From contig NZ_JAJRCG010000003.1 of assembly GCF_028679125.1 (NCBI RefSeq), positions 124,001 to 188,000 of the forward strand: a DNA stretch of 64,000 nt, read 5' to 3'. Both the position numbers and the translations under genes were made by a program. Positions within the stretch are counted from its first letter, which is position 1, and every line of letters begins with the position of its first letter. Source of the DNA: Methanoregula sp. (GTDB taxonomy: Archaea > Halobacteriota > Methanomicrobia > Methanomicrobiales > Methanospirillaceae). The notes under the pieces are model-generated. The model was not told the DNA's origin, searched no databases, and saw only the letters and a list, made by a program, of their open reading frames with translations. Below are positions 43,789-51,261 of this stretch, one piece after another.

Positions 43789-44407
43789 GCAGGTACCTCT
43801 TCTTCACGTCATCCCATGCGGCTTTCTCATCGGACAGGAGGTTCTCCCAGACAACCGGATCGTCCAGCACGTCCCGGAGGATCACGTTCCTTCGGGCCGG
43901 GTCCGGTTCCGTATTCTTTAGCGCATCGCGGAGCCGTTCCTGCACGCCAATCATCGTATCCAGCGCCGGGAACTCATCTTCGAGTTCCTCGCGGATGAAC
44001 CGGGCAACCGCCGGGCTCGACCCGTGCGTGCTGATCGCGATCGTATACCGCTCCCCACCGGTCACTGCGGGCAGGACCACGTCACCCGCTTCCCCGTCCG
44101 CGTTGTTGAAGAGGATCCCTTTCGCTTTACAGAGTCCGCCAATCCGGTCATTGATCGCCGGGTCGGAGACCGCAGCGATCACCAGGAACGCACCTTTGAC
44201 GAGCGCAGAGAGTTTCGCATCGGATACGTCAGCGAGATCGAGTTCCTGCCGGGAAAAGACCAGATCGTCAAACGCCGGTACGAACGACCGGCTCACGACC
44301 ACGAGATCGGATTTGCCGGAAAAATAGGCGGCCTTCCGTGCGGCCACGCGCCCCCCTCCGAAGATGACGATGCGCCGTGCGGAACAGTCGACAAAGAGGG
44401 GAATCAT
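43781..44407 (-). CDS. Precorrin-2 dehydrogenase (siroheme synthase N-terminal type)
   Basis: A 208-aa NAD-dependent enzyme oxidising precorrin-2 to sirohydrochlorin. The N-terminus MIPLFVDCSARRIVIFGGGR has the Rossmann Gly motif; NNADGEAGDVVLPAVTGGERYTIAISTHG matches the CysG-N/Met8 family. It lacks a separate ferrochelatase or methyltransferase domain. It starts the hem cluster. Confidence 0.92.
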   Translation of the reverse strand: MIPLFVDCSARRIVIFGGGRVAARKAAYFSGKSDLVVVSRSFVPAFDDLVFSRQELDLADVSDAKLSALVKGAFLVIAAVSDPAINDRIGGLCKAKGILFNNADGEAGDVVLPAVTGGERYTIAISTHGSSPAVARFIREELEDEFPALDTMIGVQERLRDALKNTEPDPARRNVILRDVLDDPVVWENLLSDEKAAWDDVKKRYLHG

Positions 44408-44540
44408 CTGATATTAGATAGTGTGATGATACTCAAAAATCCTATGATTTTCATCTGCTTCATACCTGAAAAAAGGTGCAGGAGATTCCCATTATTCGAT
44501 ACGCTTAAATCGTTTAACTACACACATTGTAGAGCACACT

Positions 44541-44612
44541 GCGCCGATAGTGTAGTGGTTATCACTAGGCGTTGCTAACGCCTAAACCCGGGTTCGAGTC
44601 CCGGTCGGCGCA
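44541..44612 (+). tRNA. tRNA with GCT anticodon on a glycine-type body
   Basis: All four arms pair: acceptor GCGCCGA/TCGGCGC, D-stem GTG/CAC, anticodon stem AGGCG/CGCCT with loop TTGCTAA (anticodon GCT), variable AAAC, T-arm CCGGG-TTCGAGT-CCCGG, discriminator A. GCT reads serine AGY codons, but archaeal tRNA-Ser has a long variable arm and this has four bases. The body (GCGCC acceptor, A73) fits tRNA-Gly(GCC) with one change, C36 to T. CCA is not encoded. A TTAAAT promoter-like box lies about 30 bases upstream. Its 3' end is the attachment site of the element at 44613. Confidence 0.9.
44597..44612 (+). repeat. attL: 16-bp core in the tRNA 3' end
   Basis: AGTCCCGGTCGGCGCA spans the T-loop to the discriminator base and is repeated exactly at 48373-48388, beside the integrase gene. 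Confidence 0.88.
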
Positions 44613-44685
44613 TACTGCCTTGATGTTCAAGGCGCTGCGTTCTTCTTTTAAAATAGTCAAATTCTCCATAGCAGCACTTTTACAC

Positions 44686-45357
44686 TCATGGTTTGATGCT
44701 CTTTTTACAATCATATGCCTCTTCACAAGGCAATTCATTTTCATTTTTTTTTCTGACAAATATCGGATACCAATAAAATACCCAAATAATGGCTACGACA
44801 GGAACCAACAGTATCCAATACCAAATGGAGATTATTTTTTGATTGAAGAGTATCACGATAATTCCAGATAACGCCAATCCGCTAAAAAAGCATGAAAAAA
44901 TGTTATAACATTTATGTGTCTTTTCTTCGAATTTTTCAGGGTTTAATAAGGGAAATAATTTAGGGAAATCTTGAGGTTTTGGTGAAACGTCCAATTTATC
45001 TATAAAATGTTGTGAAATCGATACGTTATACGGAACACCCAAATTATACTCGCAATGAGCCATTCGGCAATAGCCTTTAACGATGTCGTTTTGATAACTC
45101 ATGACAATTCTACGCCAAAGGTACATCGAAATAACAAACAAAAACAAGAAAATTAATAGATTCGTTAATGATGACAAAATTATACTAGAGCACCCTTTTA
45201 CGTCAAATAAATTGTAAAAAGCGAGTCCAAGAAATCCCCAAATCGCGCCGTCAGTTAATCGAATGTAAGAAGCCAAGTTTTCGTTTCTAGTATAAGTCAT
45301 GTCTAGAATCAAACGGTGGTACGCGGTATCTTCCTTGATATAATCGCAGATGGACAT
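44686..45357 (-). CDS. Four-helix membrane protein, cargo of the integrated element
   Basis: A 223-aa protein starting MSICDYIKEDTAYHRLILDM. Helices: WGFLGLAFYNLF, IILSSLTNLLIFLFLFVISM, CFFSGLALSGIIVILF and WYWILLVPVVAIIWVFYWYP. A soluble part (about 95-150) lies between the pairs. AT content is clearly higher than in core genes. It is last in the element, next to attL. No family is recognised; a role in plasmid exclusion, defence or host membrane modulation would be guesswork. Confidence 0.72.
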   Translation of the reverse strand: MSICDYIKEDTAYHRLILDMTYTRNENLASYIRLTDGAIWGFLGLAFYNLFDVKGCSSIILSSLTNLLIFLFLFVISMYLWRRIVMSYQNDIVKGYCRMAHCEYNLGVPYNVSISQHFIDKLDVSPKPQDFPKLFPLLNPEKFEEKTHKCYNIFSCFFSGLALSGIIVILFNQKIISIWYWILLVPVVAIIWVFYWYPIFVRKKNENELPCEEAYDCKKSIKP

Positions 45358-45415
45358 AACTGGCAAGTCATCGTCATATGCGATAAAAATATTGATACAA
45401 TCTCAATTGTATTGC

Positions 45416-46339
45416 TCATATGGCTGTCCTCTTACTTCTACTCCATTCAGATTGTATCTTACATTGCTCCCGCCAAACGCGCTCGGCCCAAAACTCGCGT
45501 TCCCATATCCATTTTGTTACCTCGCCTTCTAGTGTCAGATCATCTTCATCAATCTCTCTGTTTAGATCCGGGAATATCGTTCCATCATTACGGGACCAGA
45601 CCGTATATCGCGCCCCTGGTATCACCAATTCAACGGTATCCCAAGTTACTTCGGATTCTTTTGTTGGTCTCTGCATTATAGCCGTCAATTCCTTTGAGGC
45701 TCCCCACATTCTCGTGCAGGAAGCCCACACCATCGCATTGAACAGGAGTTCCCCATCAGTCCACGGCTCGTCACCGGTCCCGAATTGCTTTGTCATGTAT
45801 TTCATGAGGTAATTCCGGATTGAGTGAATGGATTCATCGGTCTTTTTCGAGGTTACATCAATTCCTCTATCGAAAGATCCCGCGCGGTATTTTTCACTCC
45901 ATAACTGTTTTATGGCCGTTTGTTCATCTTCAGTGAACTCGCGGAATACGATGAGGTGGCAATGAGGATAACCGGTCTCGTGTGGTTCAAGGACCCAGAC
46001 ATAGTTGATTCCCTTGTATCGGTTCCGCAGGACGTTGAGCAACTTTCCACGCGATTCTTTCAGGAGGTTGAAGCAATCCTCGATTGCCAGGTCCTTTCCT
46101 ATGGCTTTGCGGCTGAATGATCCATCATTGAACCGGGATTTTGAACCCTGATAGGTTGTCAGGGTGAACATGGTCACCATGCCGGAGTTATCCTTCATCC
46201 AGTTTTCTAGGGCATAGAATTTTGCCAGAACGGATTTTTGATAGATGCCGGTCCATCGGTGGATATACGGGAGAGTAATCGCAACCTCTCCTTCTGGACC
46301 GGTTCCAGTCAGCCGGAACTCGTAGTTCTTGGTTGTCAT
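45416..46339 (-). CDS. HUH-type rolling-circle replication initiator (Rep)
   Basis: A 307-aa protein starting MTTKNYEFRLTGTGPEG. Three Rep motifs appear in order: motif 1 TMFTLTTYQG, motif 2 (HUH) GYPHCHLIVFRE with the metal His pair, and motif 3 IRNYLMKYMTKQFG with the nicking Tyr and its Lys. It should nick one strand at the origin. The frame continues upstream to a GTG at 46582, but that part (Pro/Arg/Gly-rich) crosses the hairpin block and looks non-coding. A fragment of a second copy is at 49898-50113. Confidence 0.85.
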   Translation of the reverse strand: MTTKNYEFRLTGTGPEGEVAITLPYIHRWTGIYQKSVLAKFYALENWMKDNSGMVTMFTLTTYQGSKSRFNDGSFSRKAIGKDLAIEDCFNLLKESRGKLLNVLRNRYKGINYVWVLEPHETGYPHCHLIVFREFTEDEQTAIKQLWSEKYRAGSFDRGIDVTSKKTDESIHSIRNYLMKYMTKQFGTGDEPWTDGELLFNAMVWASCTRMWGASKELTAIMQRPTKESEVTWDTVELVIPGARYTVWSRNDGTIFPDLNREIDEDDLTLEGEVTKWIWEREFWAERVWREQCKIQSEWSRSKRTAI

Positions 46340-46400
46340 CAGGTATTGCTGGAACCTTTCTTTCAGTCTGCTGTGACTTATTCTATATGAGCCTAGGGAG

Positions 46401-46460
46401 GGACGGCGGCAAGCCGCCGCCCCTCGGGGGGGCAGCCCCCGACTGCCCCCCGTCACGGTC
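46401..46460. other. GC-rich hairpin block upstream of rep, possible nick origin
   Basis: GGCGGC (46405-46410) pairs with GCCGCC (46413-46418). GGGGGGCAG (46427-46435) pairs perfectly with CTGCCCCCC (46443-46451) around a 7-nt loop. Stem-loops just upstream of rep are the usual form of a double-strand origin in rolling-circle plasmids. No nick-site consensus is identifiable by eye. Confidence 0.45.
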
Positions 46461-46470
46461 TTGTGATCCC

Positions 46471-46520
46471 CCCCTCCCCTTCGGGGCCGCTCAGACGCCT
46501 CGTCGGGTCTTCGCTGGGCA
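46471..46520 (+). repeat. Dispersed repeat R2, copy 1 (short)
   Basis: It contains CCCCTCC, CTTCGGG and CGTCGGGTCTTCGCTGGGCA. The same series occurs at 50110-50160, where it continues further, and in diverged form at 58721-58853. Confidence 0.55.
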
Positions 46521-46578
46521 GGATGGTTGAGAGCATCCGCTCCGCTGATTGGATGAGCCTCTTTGCCACTCAAGAGGA

Positions 46579-46743
46579 TCACCCAACGTGCGCTACGTCA
46601 TCGTTTTCAACAATCTTTACTTTGCCGACCTTTTCCAGTGCTTTAGCCGCGAGCTGGTCAAGCGGGCTTAATGCACGGAATACGTTTTTCGAAATCGTGT
46701 ATGGGTCTTTACTACTACATTCTATCCGAGCCAGATGAGGCAT
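46579..46743 (-). CDS. 54-aa protein of the integrated element
   Basis: MPHLARIECSSKDPYTISKN then VFRALSPLDQLAAKALEKVG and KVKIVENDDVAHVG. The composition is that of a real small soluble protein, with a helix likely at 21-40. Its TGA overlaps the GTG of the long Rep frame (GTGA, 46579-46582). Its position before rep suggests a copy-number or DNA-binding regulator, but no helix-turn-helix or ribbon-helix-helix motif is clear. Confidence 0.6.
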   Translation of the reverse strand: MPHLARIECSSKDPYTISKNVFRALSPLDQLAAKALEKVGKVKIVENDDVAHVG

Positions 46744-46834
46744 GGTTTGGTGCCATCCTGGTATCCTTCGAGAAAGAGACGTTAGATTGATACAGAACGG
46801 CAGTATCAGTCACGGAAATAAAAGACAGACGGTT

Positions 46835-46926
46835 TGAGACTATTGCCCGTCTCAGGCTCGGGTAGAAATGGGCTGTTGCCCGCCCTAGGCTCGGGTTCGG
46901 TGAGGTATTGCCCCCTCAAGGCTCGG
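46835..46926. repeat. Three tandem hairpins with conserved loop and tail, variable stems
   Basis: Unit 1: TGAGAC-TATTGCCC-GTCTCA then GGCTCGGG. Unit 2: GGGC-TGTTGCCC-GCCC then TA and GGCTCGGG. Unit 3: TGAGG-TATTGCCC-CCTCA then A and GGCTCGG. Loops start at 46841, 46874 and 46906 (33 and 32 bases apart). The stems differ in sequence yet stay paired, whereas loop T(A/G)TTGCCC and tail are fixed. That pattern means selection for structure. The array sits between the integrase stop and the 54-aa gene. Confidence 0.8.
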
Positions 46927-46942
46927 ACTGGTGTAAGAGATG

Positions 46943-46983
46943 TCCTGTAGAAGTGACCCTGTAGTAGAAAGACCCTGTAGTAG
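46943..46983. repeat. Short direct repeats (iteron-like)
   Basis: GACCCTGTAGTAG occurs at 46955-46967 and 46971-46983, with a partial copy TCCTGTAGAAG at 46943-46953. Spacing is 16 and about 12 bases. Such repeats next to replication genes often bind initiators or regulators. Confidence 0.55.
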
Positions 46984-47096
46984 TTCCTATTCTTGTCTAT
47001 TGTTTTCTGTTTACCTCTTTTTCTATGTAATACCAATACTTTCGTTGGATATTTTGCCTAATAAACGTATAGCACGAAGTGAAAGTAAAAAAAGAA

Positions 47097-48311
47097 TCAG
47101 GCCGGTTGACTCTGCAATTCTTTCAGGAGCTCGAGAAGAACCGTTTGAGCCTGCGGACTCTCTGAAAGGAGTTCGCGGATCTTGTTACTGCCTTCAATGA
47201 CACTATGAGAGGCCTCGCTGGTCAATGGATGGCCGCATGTCGAACAATAAGTCGATGTCGGGGAATTGATAGTAGAACAATGACCGCATTGGTGCGGTTT
47301 TAATCCTCGTTCTTTCTTCTTTTCAGGGACTTCAATTCCATACAGTTTGAGCATCTCATTATCAACATCCTGACCGGTCAGGTGCAGATAGGTTTTGAGC
47401 ATCCTGCTATCTTGTGAACCCCATGCCACGGCCTTGATAACGCTCTCACTTGCACCCTCACGCACAAGGTGAGTAATTCGTGAGTGTCGGAATACATGGG
47501 GATTAACCCGTTTTGTTATACCTGCTCTCTCAGCAATTCTCTCAATTTGTCGTCTTACTTGGGCATGGGTCAATGGATCGCCATTCCTATTGACAAATAC
47601 TAATGAGTCTCCTTCGGGAGTACCGGGATAGATTGAACGCCATCGGGAGAGATAATCAAGAGCCATGACCAGCCGTATGTATCGGGGTTTATCGGTTTTG
47701 AATGAGACATTGGCGATAACACCGTATTCGTCAAACTTGAGATCCCCCCACTTTAACCGGCCAATTTCACCGATTCGGAACGCACCTTCATAGAGGGTAA
47801 GGAGAAGTGCGCGGTCTGAATCTCTCTTGCATCCCTTGATCATTTGAGTTATCTCATCTGGTGTCAGAAGGTCGGATGCGACCGTTGTCATCGGGTCCCG
47901 CCCCGGTGCTTTAATCTCCTCTATCCGGTCACGGGGAATTTTTGTGAACTTGTTTTTTGCAAGCCAGATATAGAACTGTTTGAGGACCTTTAGGAAATCG
48001 CTGATGGTGTTTGGTTTGTATGTTTTTCCCGTGAGTGATTTTGTCTTCTTCAAGTCCATGATGCCCTTGTGGATGTCGTTAACGGTGCACTGGTTGAATG
48101 GCTTGGGGATCACCTTGCGCCAGCCAACAAGAGTGAATGTGATTTTATTGACACGGGATATTGAGACACCTGCGGTGGCTTGTAATTCATTAGTGAATGT
48201 CCTAACAAGTTCTGCATCTTTTTCAGTGAATCGCTCTTCTTTCAGTGCTCTCTGAATTGAGTTTTCTGCATACTCTTCTCGCACCAGATTGAACGAAGCA
48301 TCCACTTTCAT
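47097..48311 (-). CDS. Tyrosine recombinase / integrase with C-terminal zinc ribbon
   Basis: A 404-aa integrase. The N-terminal SAM-like domain spans about 15-120. Catalytic residues: Arg in YEGAFRIGEIGRLKWGDL, His and Arg in NPHVFRHSRITHLVREG, later His/Trp position in KAVAWGSQDSRM, and Tyr in MLKTYLHLTGQD. The C-terminus adds HQCGHCSTINSPTSTYCSTC, a zinc ribbon, seen in some archaeal plasmid integrases. It lies 61 bases from attR with its start toward it. The gene is uninterrupted, so excision may still be possible. Confidence 0.93.
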   Translation of the reverse strand: MKVDASFNLVREEYAENSIQRALKEERFTEKDAELVRTFTNELQATAGVSISRVNKITFTLVGWRKVIPKPFNQCTVNDIHKGIMDLKKTKSLTGKTYKPNTISDFLKVLKQFYIWLAKNKFTKIPRDRIEEIKAPGRDPMTTVASDLLTPDEITQMIKGCKRDSDRALLLTLYEGAFRIGEIGRLKWGDLKFDEYGVIANVSFKTDKPRYIRLVMALDYLSRWRSIYPGTPEGDSLVFVNRNGDPLTHAQVRRQIERIAERAGITKRVNPHVFRHSRITHLVREGASESVIKAVAWGSQDSRMLKTYLHLTGQDVDNEMLKLYGIEVPEKKKERGLKPHQCGHCSTINSPTSTYCSTCGHPLTSEASHSVIEGSNKIRELLSESPQAQTVLLELLKELQSQPA

Positions 48312-48372
48312 ACATGATTGTTGGCCTTTTCGCTATATGAAAATTATGTAAGGGATTCTAACATTTTGTTAA

Positions 48373-48388
48373 AGTCCCGGTCGGCGCA
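48373..48388 (+). repeat. attR: 16-bp copy of the tRNA 3' end
   Basis: AGTCCCGGTCGGCGCA is identical to 44597-44612. Outside it the flanking bases differ from the tRNA locus. Confidence 0.88.
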
Positions 48389-48451
48389 CTTCTTTTGTCA
48401 GTCTTGAAGAGAGAGCAGAAGCGGTTTTCGTTTGGGAAATTAACAACAAAT

Positions 48452-48524
48452 GCCCATGTGACAGAGCCCGGCAGTGTGCCTCCTTGGTACGGAGGAAGTC
48501 GCGAGTTCAAATTTCACCATAGGT
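48452..48524 (+). pseudogene. Decayed tRNA-Thr(GGT)
   Basis: The sequence fits the cloverleaf at every boundary: acceptor GCCCATG/CATAGGT (one mismatch), D region with AGCCCGGCAG, anticodon arm CCTCC-TTGGTAC-GGAGG (anticodon GGT), variable AAGTC, T-arm GCGAG-TTCAAAT-TTCAC (one C.A mismatch and a G.T pair). Archaeal tRNA-Thr has CTCGC in the T-arm and a GCTC-type D stem, so several C-to-T and G-to-A type changes have accumulated. Probably inactive; a divergent but used tRNA is possible. Confidence 0.6.
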
Positions 48525-48611
48525 TTGAATTGAAAAGTTCCAATCGTGAGACTTCTTTGAAAACTTAAAAAATATTGAAACTTTACTGACTGTATCAGTG
48601 TTGGTAAAAAA

Positions 48612-49157
48612 TCATAATGTATCTCTATCAAAGAATTCTCGTATTTTCTGTAGGAATGTTTTCCAATTAATTTTTGATATCACTGCCCCAATTGCAGTGA
48701 TTATGAAAATAATTATCGCAATACCTAGCGCGCCCAAATAATCAGAAAGCCATGCGCTATAAAAACGAGTATCATAGGTATATGTTGAGCGTAATCCCGA
48801 GTAATTCCCTACAATATTGACACGATCATAGCCATTTGGAATCTCAAATATCACTTGCCCAGATTCATTCGATAAAAGGGGACCAGCCAAAAGGATATCT
48901 GAATCATAAGTGTCGATAGAAAAAATTACATCAGAAAGTGGGGCATTATTTGAATAATTCATTGCATTGATACAAAGTTGATTTCCATTTATTTTTTCAA
49001 CAGAAAATTTAAAGGTAGTTTTTTCAGTTATTGGTGGAAATCCCACAAACATGGAAGAGGTCATGGCGATTATTATCGTAAGTTCGAGCATTAGCACAAC
49101 TCCGATAATAGGCGATATACCTGGGCGAATAAGCGGTTCTGGGGTATTTTCTGTCAC
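48612..49157 (-). CDS. Archaeal type IV pilin-like protein
   Basis: A 181-aa protein. The N-terminus RPGISPIIGVVLMLELTIII is the class III signal and hydrophobic stem of archaeal pilins (cleavage expected before the ISPIIG-type stretch). A beta-rich, NxS/T-containing domain follows. Unusually for a pilin, a second helix is near the C-terminus (YLGALGIAIIIFIITAIGAV) with a basic tail, so it may be membrane-fixed at both ends. It is AT-rich and lies in the accessory zone. Confidence 0.72.
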   Translation of the reverse strand: MTENTPEPLIRPGISPIIGVVLMLELTIIIAMTSSMFVGFPPITEKTTFKFSVEKINGNQLCINAMNYSNNAPLSDVIFSIDTYDSDILLAGPLLSNESGQVIFEIPNGYDRVNIVGNYSGLRSTYTYDTRFYSAWLSDYLGALGIAIIIFIITAIGAVISKINWKTFLQKIREFFDRDTL

Positions 49158-49290
49158 AGTATAAAATCAGTCTTAGAAATAATATATTATTCGAGGAGAG
49201 ATTTCACCCAACACAACTCTTGACAATTTTTCTCTTCAAAGAATCTCGAAAACAAGATTACCGAACCCTTATCTATGACATCGAAGGAAG

Positions 49291-49893
49291 GACCGTATTC
49301 GGAAAGCCATCGGACTTACATCAATACCTCACTTCACTACACTCCAGAAATTTATTTGCCTGATCAAACCAATCTATTTTTGCTATTCTCCTAAAATGCA
49401 CCCTGAAAATTTTCTATTCTCCTGATGACATAATTCCCATTACTGCCGTCAATTCATTCGGCTTTCCCGATGGATATTGTAGTCATTATTACTCATTTAG
49501 AACCGGGAAGATCCGAAAAAAGTTCCTCAAAAATTCAATCGTTGTCGATATCTATCAACAGGTTATCACCGGATTCATGATATCGAAAAGCCGGGTCAAT
49601 GATTTCCAAAATGCTTTCTCTCTTATGAATAAAAGTCATAAACTCCATAAATCTGAATGCTATGTCATGGACAAAGAATATGATTCCGAGAAAATGCATC
49701 GATTTATCCGTGAAACCCTAAACGCTGACTCAATCATTCCAGCACAATCTCACAATTACTTTTCGAATGTCTGAAGAAAATATCGTCAGGAGATGACTGA
49801 TCATTTCGATACTAATCGGTACCGAAAACGATTCCTGGTTGAAACACAATTCTCTGTCCTCAAATGAAGGTTCGGGGATGACCTGAAATCCCA
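49291..49893 (+). pseudogene. Degenerate transposase related to the one at 12157
   Basis: Translated in pieces it follows the intact transposase: PITAVNSFGFPDGYCSHYYS, FRTGKIRKKFLKNSIVVD, QQVITGFMISKSRVND, ECYVMDKEYDSEKMHRFIRE and FLVETQFSVLK. The first catalytic Asp is Asn here, and in-frame stops follow FSNV and SVLK. The N-terminal third is missing or unrecognisable. It cannot encode an active enzyme. Confidence 0.82.
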
Positions 49894-49897
49894 AATA

Positions 49898-50113
49898 TTC
49901 CAGAACTGTTTAGTCACATTCCCTTCAGGACATAGATCATTTAGATCTTGTTCAATCGTTTGTTGTTCACCGAGAGAAGGGGCGCGGCGTTCCATCATGA
50001 CGAGACCAGAGTTCAAATTGTGCACCGGGTATAAGCAGTTCGATAGTATCCCATGTAACATCAGATTCCTTTTCAGGTCTCCGCATTACAACCGTTAGTT
50101 CCTTTGATGCCCC
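49898..50113 (-). pseudogene. Fragment of a second Rep gene
   Basis: ASKELTVVMRRPEKESDVTW then DTIELLIPGAQFELWSRHDG parallels ASKELTAIMQRPTKESEVTW and DTVELVIPGARYTVWSRNDG of the Rep at 45416. After a frameshift it continues EQDLNDLCPEGNVTKQFW, matching the Rep C-terminal part. The HUH and Tyr motifs are gone: repeat R2 joins directly to the ASKEL codons, implying an internal deletion. Confidence 0.8.
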
Positions 50114-50236
50114 CTCCGCTTCGGGATCGCTCGGGCGCTTCGTCGGGTCCTCGCTGGGCAACCGACCAGATCAAAAATTAGCGTACAGGTAAGTGGGTAG
50201 CGCAAAACCCGCCGAGGCGTTTTGCGCGTAAGCCAT
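50110..50236 (+). repeat. Dispersed repeat R2, copy 2
   Basis: CCCCTCCGCTTCGGG, CGTCGGGTCCTCGCTGGGCA, then an AT-rich spacer and a hairpin GCGCAAAAC/GTTTTGCGC (9 bp) near 50197-50225. The first part equals 46471-46520; the whole aligns with 58721-58853. Confidence 0.6.
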
Positions 50237-50334
50237 CGCAATAATCGAATTTATTTCCGGAAAAATTTACCCGGCAAATAAAATTTTTATTTAGTTCCCG
50301 AAAATTTCTCCGGCATTGTGTACACAATTTTTTA

Positions 50335-50739
50335 CAAAAAATTTTCAGCATGCGAGCCAACTCCCCCCAATCTCCCCTCCGGACTGCCGCCACGGGCAGG
50401 CAGTTCTTCTGGCAGGGGGTTCCGTGGTAATACCTCTCCGTCGGAGAACCTGCCTTGAGGGTGCTGAGAGTCCGGCAGGAATCTCGTTATCTCAAATATG
50501 GCTCCTTTTGCCAAACGGGCGCCATTATGGCCTTTTTGTTATTGGACCGCTCTTCCCGGGATCCCGTGCCCTGTGGGAATTCGCACGAAAACCAGAATTT
50601 AGGGTCCGGAAAGCGATGGTTATTCGGGGTTTTCACGTCGGACCAGAAAATTTCGCTAATAGAACCCTTTTATTTCGATCGGAGGGTCTTTTGTGTGGTA
50701 CCGTAAGGGCACGGAAAGGAGGGGAGATCTTCCGGATCA
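50335..50739 (+). repeat. 410-bp dispersed repeat, copy B
   Basis: It is the reverse-complement partner of 10588-10997, from CAAAAAATTTTCAGC to ATCTTCCGGATCA. Identity is highest at 50625-50700. In both places a transposase of the same family lies on the 5' side of the repeat in the same orientation. A + strand frame (50316-50852) is open but has no good start. Confidence 0.75.
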
Positions 50740-50988
50740 TTCTCCCGACAATCGGCAGCGGGAAATCCGAGACAGGGATATCAGGGATTCTGTCTGACCT
50801 GACCACTGGCACCCGGGAAGAAGAAAAGATAATCATTTTTTTAGATTCCTGATTCTGGAGGGTGAAGCCTTCTCAAGGATTAACGTGGATTTTTTCTAAC
50901 GCATCTGTTCCGGAACAACCATCCTGATGAATCAGTAATAATTTCCCTGAACAACGGGATATGCACCGCTGAACAGAGAGATCCCCGA

Positions 50989-51261
50989 TCAAAGGCCGCA
51001 CTGAGTCTCGCAGGCAGTCAGATCGTCCATACACTGTTCGTTGTTGCAGTAGGCACCCACGCAGGAGTTCTCGCAACTGAAAGAATTCTGGATGCAGACA
51101 TGCACGCAGCCCGCATCGATATCATTCGCCGGTGCCGTGACCGCCTTCTGTTGCGGCAGATCAATAGCGAAATAATGCACGCCGGCAACAAATGCTCCGG
51201 CAATCGAGAGGCAGATCATGAAGAGTACGAGGCTTGTTAGCGGGGATTTTATACCGGTCAT
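50989..51261 (-). CDS. Small membrane-anchored Cys-rich protein C
   Basis: A 90-aa member of the family at 23105 and 24536: MTGIKSPLT, helix SLVLFMICLSIAGAFVAGVH, linker YFAIDLPQQKAV, then eight Cys as CVHVC, CENSC, YCNNEQC and CETQC (repeated CxxxC spacing). AGGATGG is the ribosome site. A TTTATATT box (about 51317) and GGAATTTTTCCC (51348-51359) lie upstream in the order seen for genes A and B. Confidence 0.76.
   Translation of the reverse strand: MTGIKSPLTSLVLFMICLSIAGAFVAGVHYFAIDLPQQKAVTAPANDIDAGCVHVCIQNSFSCENSCVGAYCNNEQCMDDLTACETQCGL

Follow-up and report, generated by a model that had tools for sequence, protein, structure and literature searches.

The window (the whole stretch of 64,000 nucleotides that was analysed) carries an integrated element in which three tandem hairpin units combine a fixed loop and a fixed tail with stems that differ in sequence and remain paired. 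With the constant loop and tail as given, stem pairing of this extent exceeds what is expected by chance. The array is probably a lineage-specific variant of a known origin architecture, and its units may, as a tentative reading of the sequence, be lineage-specific accessory sites recognised by the HUH Rep that the element encodes. A second module, adjoining rep, is probably the double-strand origin of the element, and its sequence is better conserved than that of the array.

The element spans about 3.8 kb and sits in a tRNA-Ser gene, between att-like repeats 3776 bp apart (Table 1), which supports the earlier proposal, made in a first-pass annotation of this DNA, that the array belongs to an integrated element. 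The gene map, with its tyrosine integrase and its HUH Rep, likewise bears out the position that had been given to the array between integrase and replication genes; more precisely, it falls between the stop of the integrase (47097) and a 54-aa ORF. The C-terminal part of the integrase is weakly zinc-ribbon-like, with zinc-ribbon matches below their cut-offs. Rep matches PF23343 (E=4.4e-11), PF07232 (E=2.6e-6) and phrog_3419 (rolling-circle initiation, E=4.4e-5). It contains the HUH metal motif GYPHCH and the catalytic tyrosine motif YxxxYxxK, and the residues H130, H132, Y181, Y185 and K188 are invariant in 10 aligned sequences, its own included. The comparison with solved structures returned one uninformative match (E=0.14). 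An ORF similar to the 54-aa ORF of the interval was recovered by a one-motif search in four of the five related elements that carry both int and rep (L140, L133, L135 and L137); none was recovered in the fifth, L131, or in L132, L134, L136 and pML. The 226-aa ORF had no tblastn match in the related loci.

Table 1. Features of the integrated element, in window coordinates
Feature	Coordinates	Strand	Remarks
tRNA-Ser(GCT)	44540-44613		3' end corresponds to an att-like repeat
att-like repeat	44592..44612	+	3' end of tRNA-Ser(GCT); 19/21 identical to the other repeat
226-aa ORF	44686..45366	-	hydrophobic by eye; no confident family
rep, HUH rolling-circle initiator	45416..46351	-	311 aa from the start used; open frame longer
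putative double-strand origin	46371..46425	-	12-13 bp GC-rich hairpin, then CTAGGCTCATATAGAATAAGTCACAG
54-aa ORF, integrase-rep interval	46579..46743	-	relatives in other elements
array unit 1	46835..46861	+	TGAGAC(TATTGCCC)GTCTCA, then GGCTCGG, continuing GTAGAA
array unit 2	46870..46894	+	GGGC(TGTTGCCC)GCCC, TA, GGCTCGG; alternative GGGC(TGTT)GCCC
array unit 3	46901..46926	+	TGAGG(TATTGCCC)CCTCA, A, GGCTCGG
tyrosine integrase	47097..48311	-	PF00589, E=1.8e-25
att-like repeat, other element end	48368..48388	+	19/21 identical

Two further features lie outside the element. Just beyond its end is a low-scoring tRNA-Thr(GGT) (37.9 bits; 48452-48525, + strand), the final 22 nt of which do not recur in the window at up to 4 mismatches. 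At 49988-50160 (- strand), what is left of a second rep (127 nt, 75%) is joined directly to a stretch that resembles the origin-upstream region (51 nt, 86%); from its sequence, this is a decayed second element beside the intact one.

The description of the array as three units 32-33 bases apart, with the stems TGAGAC/GTCTCA, GGGC/GCCC and TGAGG/CCTCA, was right in both sequence and coordinates. The units are direct repeats, with start-to-start distances of 33 and 32 nt, and their Watson-Crick stems of 6, 4 and 5 bp (units 1, 2 and 3) enclose, in register, an 8-nt loop that reads TATTGCCC, TGTTGCCC and TATTGCCC (consensus T(A/G)TTGCCC). The tail GGCTCGG begins at 46855, 46888 and 46920, 0-2 nt after the stem in all three units, and the alignment of the units upholds the constancy of loop and tail beside varying arms. 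Left-arm shuffling, repeated 200,000 times, never reached the 15 paired bases (best of 4 registers). In an ungapped alignment, five of the six pairs are changed on both sides and 83% of the cells are paired, a proportion that falls to 28-50% when the partner is slid by 1 to 3 columns. On four of five measures of covariation, the observed value was reached by 2 of 500 shuffles, and the fifth, which concerns further pair types, was ordinary (114 of 500).

This covariation is measured among three paralogous units of one element, with no orthologues found for comparison, and the number of compensatory pairs would vary with the alignment from about two to five, being about two if unit 3 lost one pair. 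The outer end TGAG/CTCA is common to units 1 and 3. Unit 2, both alone and within the array, folds better as GGGC(TGTT)GCCC, a hairpin that pairs half of the 'loop' and ends 6 nt from GGCTC. Taken individually, the hairpin scores of the units (6, 4 and 5) are unremarkable, as they are matched by 5.5%, 35% and 12% of random positions, respectively.

Arms that vary but stay paired around a constant loop are typical of RNA recognition, and the 54-aa ORF, which is read on the - strand and has relatives, starts 91 nt downstream of the array. The hairpins might accordingly belong to RNA, either in the leader of a - strand transcript that covers the small ORF and rep or as an antisense or copy-control RNA on the + strand, with a protein reading loop and tail. 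This explanation appears rather unlikely, however, since the whole-array fold of the + strand is no better than that of shuffled sequences (z -0.04; 88 of 200 shuffles at least as stable), the array was not found in relatives, and the search of 44000-51000 against Rfam 15 at E<=1 returned only two tRNAs, so that the array corresponds to no known RNA family. The lack of a promoter-like site is a weak point against it, as the scan did not cover archaeal promoters. The same Rfam result agrees with the earlier statement that no described element has this loop and tail. A conserved RNA family was rejected as a candidate for the array on the basis of Rfam and of a covariance model (R1) run over 232 genomes of the order, where adjacent matches were confined to this element.

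With regard to distribution, Rep matches were detected in 22 of these 232 order genomes, its own included and many of them fragments, and a profile search at E<=1e-10 recovered Rep in 9 of 392 genomes of the phylum, again with its own. The closest Rep among plasmids is that of pML (NC_005563) of Methanohalophilus mahii, with 39% identity; the one haloarchaeal plasmid match was weak (24.8% identity). No relatives of Rep were found by tblastn in viral contigs (4 and 90 candidate stretches), nor in the phage collection. The DNA of the array was found in one of the 232 order genomes, its own, with no match in the 231 others, and gave no blastn match in plasmids. The R1 search, of the kind that the first-pass annotation had proposed, was run with stricter filters over the order and yielded some match at E<=1 in 81 of the 232 genomes. 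Three adjacent matches, of 38.7, 40 and 41 bits, were obtained in the element's own genome and none comparable in the order genomes, where the best score elsewhere was 26.2 bits; where another genome gave two or more matches, these were widely separated or on separate contigs. With the filters off, the highest R1 score among 11 loci with Rep relatives was 11.3 bits, and among ten longer Rep-relative loci it was 12.4 bits. In the nearest element (L140/L004, Rep 72% identical) there is no array, and by eye the interval holds other short ORFs.

Because it was not found in other order genomes or in related Rep loci, the array is not a core part of the family. The existence of related elements without it speaks against a conserved function: the units are real and had been correctly described, but their interpretation as a conserved structure went too far. 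A family-wide copy-control RNA or an essential single-strand origin, both suggested at that stage, is unlikely because the array was not found in relatives, although either could still exist as a lineage-specific feature.

In the case of a single-strand origin, hairpins on the displaced strand would recruit the host machinery that makes duplex DNA, and the array, in an element of the rolling-circle type, does have rep and the putative origin downstream of it. The CS-6 type motif TAGCGT marks bacterial ssoA; it is absent from both strands of 46830-46940, and archaeal origins need not have it. PMC9569500 gives 100-200 bp as the usual distance at which a single-strand origin precedes the double-strand origin, whereas the distance here is 0.44 kb. 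Moreover, the single-unit DNA stability is ordinary on both strands (z -1.58 to +0.18), and the int-rep interval of five related int-plus-rep elements contains neither an R1 match nor a three-copy repeat, which together make a single-strand origin quite unlikely. The whole array folded as DNA is also ordinary (- strand, z 0.28).

Looser searches returned isolated look-alikes. The array in viruses was considered as a candidate and rejected: a loose two-unit pattern picked out 72 viral contigs, and among the loci L055-L128 (these 72 and two genome loci) a stem of at least 4, with G-T allowed, was present in four, of which only L061 had two units. There, the two-unit stretch is a 33-nt repeat in a 510-aa ORF and so is probably coding. 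The strict unit occurred once each in 58 contigs and twice in none, with a stem of at least 4 in one of them. In the phylum genomes, the two-unit pattern was found in 3 of 392, twice in the element's own and once each in G145 and G151, whose copies are of near-identical sequence and lack a stem of 4 or more. A search thin on subscription literature yielded, among the matches listed, no paper on the array or on the pML origin.

The module adjoining rep recurs in relatives as a GC-rich hairpin with a variable stem, followed by a tail near CTWGGCTCATATAGAMTAA. It is probably the double-strand origin, and we infer both this putative identity and the nick position. The module was recognised in 8 of the 10 relatives compared (L140, L131, L132, L133, L135, L136, L137 and pML, the last being L033); L134 has multiplied tails without a hairpin, and L139 has neither hairpin nor tail. 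L140, L131, L133 and the window itself have an exact tail, and of its 19 positions 1 is mismatched in L132, 2 in pML, 3 in L135, 3 in L137 and 5 in L136, giving origin-like tails with 0-5 mismatches in nine elements, the window's own and pML included. Five of the eight tails in relatives were found by an automatic scan (L140, L131, L133, L136 and pML), and those of L132, L135 and L137 by eye. The score of the origin hairpin is 11 for the window, 10 for L133, 9 for L136, 8 for L135 and L137, 7 for L140 and 4 for pML, and no hairpin lies within 10 nt of the tail in L131 and L132. A score of at least 7 is thus reached by 5 of 8 relatives, compared with 1.9% of 3000 random positions. Folded as single-stranded DNA, the origins of the window, L133 and L136 are more stable than their shuffles (z -3.3 to -3.5; 46378-46425 in the window, z -3.54), and that of L140 is no more stable than its shuffles (z -0.51). 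At up to 1 mismatch, 18 of 231 genomes contain GGCTCATATAGAMTAA, at 27 sites in all; the reversed control has 9 sites. Because the module recurs in relatives, this Rep family appears to read a variable hairpin followed by GGC.

Origin tails are also seen in isolation, at L162, L167, L168, L169, L175, L177 and L193 (genomes and one viral contig), several of them followed by GTCACA. The stretches searched at the isolated-tail loci gave no Rep match at E<=1e-3, and a hairpin score of at least 7 was obtained in 1 of the 11 isolated tails checked (L177, AT-rich). A Rep-mobilised transposon was considered for the origin tail and rejected, as hairpin-plus-CTWG ends sought downstream of the tail in 11 loci gave one match, an AT-rich hairpin 6.6 kb off. 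At other loci (L161, L164, L176 and L178), the tail is multiplied in tandem, with copies about 10 to 35 nt apart: as counted by eye, those of G158 (L161) are 35 nt apart, L134/L176 has about five partial copies, and in L178 and L164 the tail is doubled or tripled. The multiplied tails of L164 and L178 lie near rep fragments, and those of L176 upstream of an open rep frame. Extra tail copies appear to be a recurrent theme, and in those loci they have one orientation only.

The array lies about 0.44 kb from the putative origin, in the opposite orientation, and several comparisons make a link between the two suggestive. Unit 2 (CCCGCCCTAGGCTC) agrees with the element's own origin (CCCTCCCTAGGCTC) at 13 of 14 bases, on the opposite strand; this 14-mer has no other place in the window at up to 2 mismatches, and at least 2 matches were seen in 4 of 100 shuffles. 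For the best local alignment between array and own origin, 6 of 3236 background strand-windows did as well, as did 59 of 5000 shuffled arrays. The pattern GGCTCNNNTAGAA, which was picked after its sites had been seen, has 4 sites in the 2.67-Mb genome, compared with 12 for the reversed-pattern control, and 3 of the 4 fall within 487 bp here, at the origin, at 46732-46720 (- strand) and in the tail region of unit 1. Outside the element, 9 of the window's 5562 hairpins with a stem of at least 4 are followed by AGGCTC, which makes this combination rare. The units do not amount to complete origins: the full tail CTWGGCTCATATAGAMTAA is missing in units 1-3, which rank 1536, 598 and 5194 of 127,962 by profile (own origin, rank 1), and the 22-nt origin core at up to 3 mismatches occurs once in the window, with no second copy. 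The comparison with the origins of relatives is uneven, as 2 (L140), 29 (L133), 7 (L135), 56 (L136) and 743 (pML) of 809 windows were as good; for L135, the better array strand was the minus strand. Because the array tails partly match the Rep-adjacent origin motif, a protein-binding array, with putative binding, is favoured among the options that the first-pass annotation had listed.

The partial resemblance to the origin is also what a relic would display, that is, a degenerate origin-like stretch amplified by slippage as a neutral tandem duplication with no present role. The detection of the array in one genome only and the recurrence of tandem tail duplications at other loci fit such an origin, but loop, tail and three stems have been kept paired despite differing arms, which would not be expected from pure decay; a relic is considered unlikely. 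The repeats could alternatively form a duplex-DNA operator with sites three helical turns apart, to which a host factor or the 54-aa protein would bind, and in which the hairpins are incidental. The 32-33 nt spacing and the presence of more short repeats with CCTGTAGTAG adjoining the array would suit an operator, yet its arms should be conserved, and those of the array vary while remaining complementary, leaving this explanation very unlikely. With regard to these neighbouring sequences, GACCCTGTAGTAG occurs twice, 16 nt apart, at 46947-46983 (+ strand), with a third degenerate copy by eye; the short repeats at 46955-46983, just beside the array, contain CCTGTAGTAG, and a similar stretch, TGTAGTAG-AAAGACCC, lies on the other strand near 46715.

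If the units are accessory recognition sites for Rep, each would present a short hairpin and then, after 0-2 nt, GGCTC, which belongs to the 5' half of the origin tail (CTAGGCTC-ATATAGAATAA). Rep, which would read a hairpin and its adjoining sequence in order to nick the main origin, could also bind the array units, and their spacing of 32-33 nt, about three turns of DNA, would set them on one face. Since most of the 3' half of the origin motif is missing from their tails, the units would be bound but poorly nicked. In this manner, they might load or sequester Rep and thereby tune initiation at the main origin as well as the expression of the small ORF and rep. A highly improbable variant makes the array a putative counter-origin, whose three Rep-recognised hairpins, on the strand opposite to that of the main origin, would allow Rep itself to initiate the second strand; if true, both strands would be made by rolling circle and no host-dependent single-strand origin would be needed.

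The origins of rolling-circle elements in methanogens are poorly known, and the double- and single-strand origins in PMC9569500 are, by its own account, proposals awaiting verification. The present analysis points to a putative origin motif in nine elements of the Rep family, which may be a more useful result than the array. The array may show how a rolling-circle element adds Rep sites or copy control. Were Rep to bind it, the array would provide a tractable system for HUH initiators that read hairpins with changing stems; were it not to, the array would be an isolated repeat of modest interest.

Several known systems can be compared with the array. The bind loci of rolling-circle origins such as pMV158 consist of a few direct repeats away from the nick hairpin. 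The array resembles such bind loci, or iterons, in being three direct repeats near a putative origin that are possibly bound by the initiator; we know of no covarying hairpins in pMV158-type bind loci. The haloarchaeal rolling-circle origin TCTCGGCnnnCnnnG, as given in PMC9569500, has CTCGG in common with the array tail GGCTCGG, but only these 5 letters are common and the Rep described here is closest, among plasmids, to that of pML. As for the SNJ2-type archaeal origin, the accessible sections of PMC13107129 place it downstream of rep, describe the Rep-Arvir of this type as distinct from the HUH superfamily and contain no tandem array in their description of the origin; the likeness consists in an inverted repeat and a conserved stem-loop beside a rolling-circle initiator in an integrating element. 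Compared with the putative origin of the Rep family itself, the array tails continue with GG and not ATATAGAATAA, the loops are of 8 nt instead of the 2-4 nt of six strong origin hairpins, the stems are of 4-6 bp instead of 7-13 bp, and the units are present in three copies on the opposite strand. Both belong to the same element, and both appear to present a variable-stem hairpin with GGCTC, or a sequence close to it, a few nt further on.
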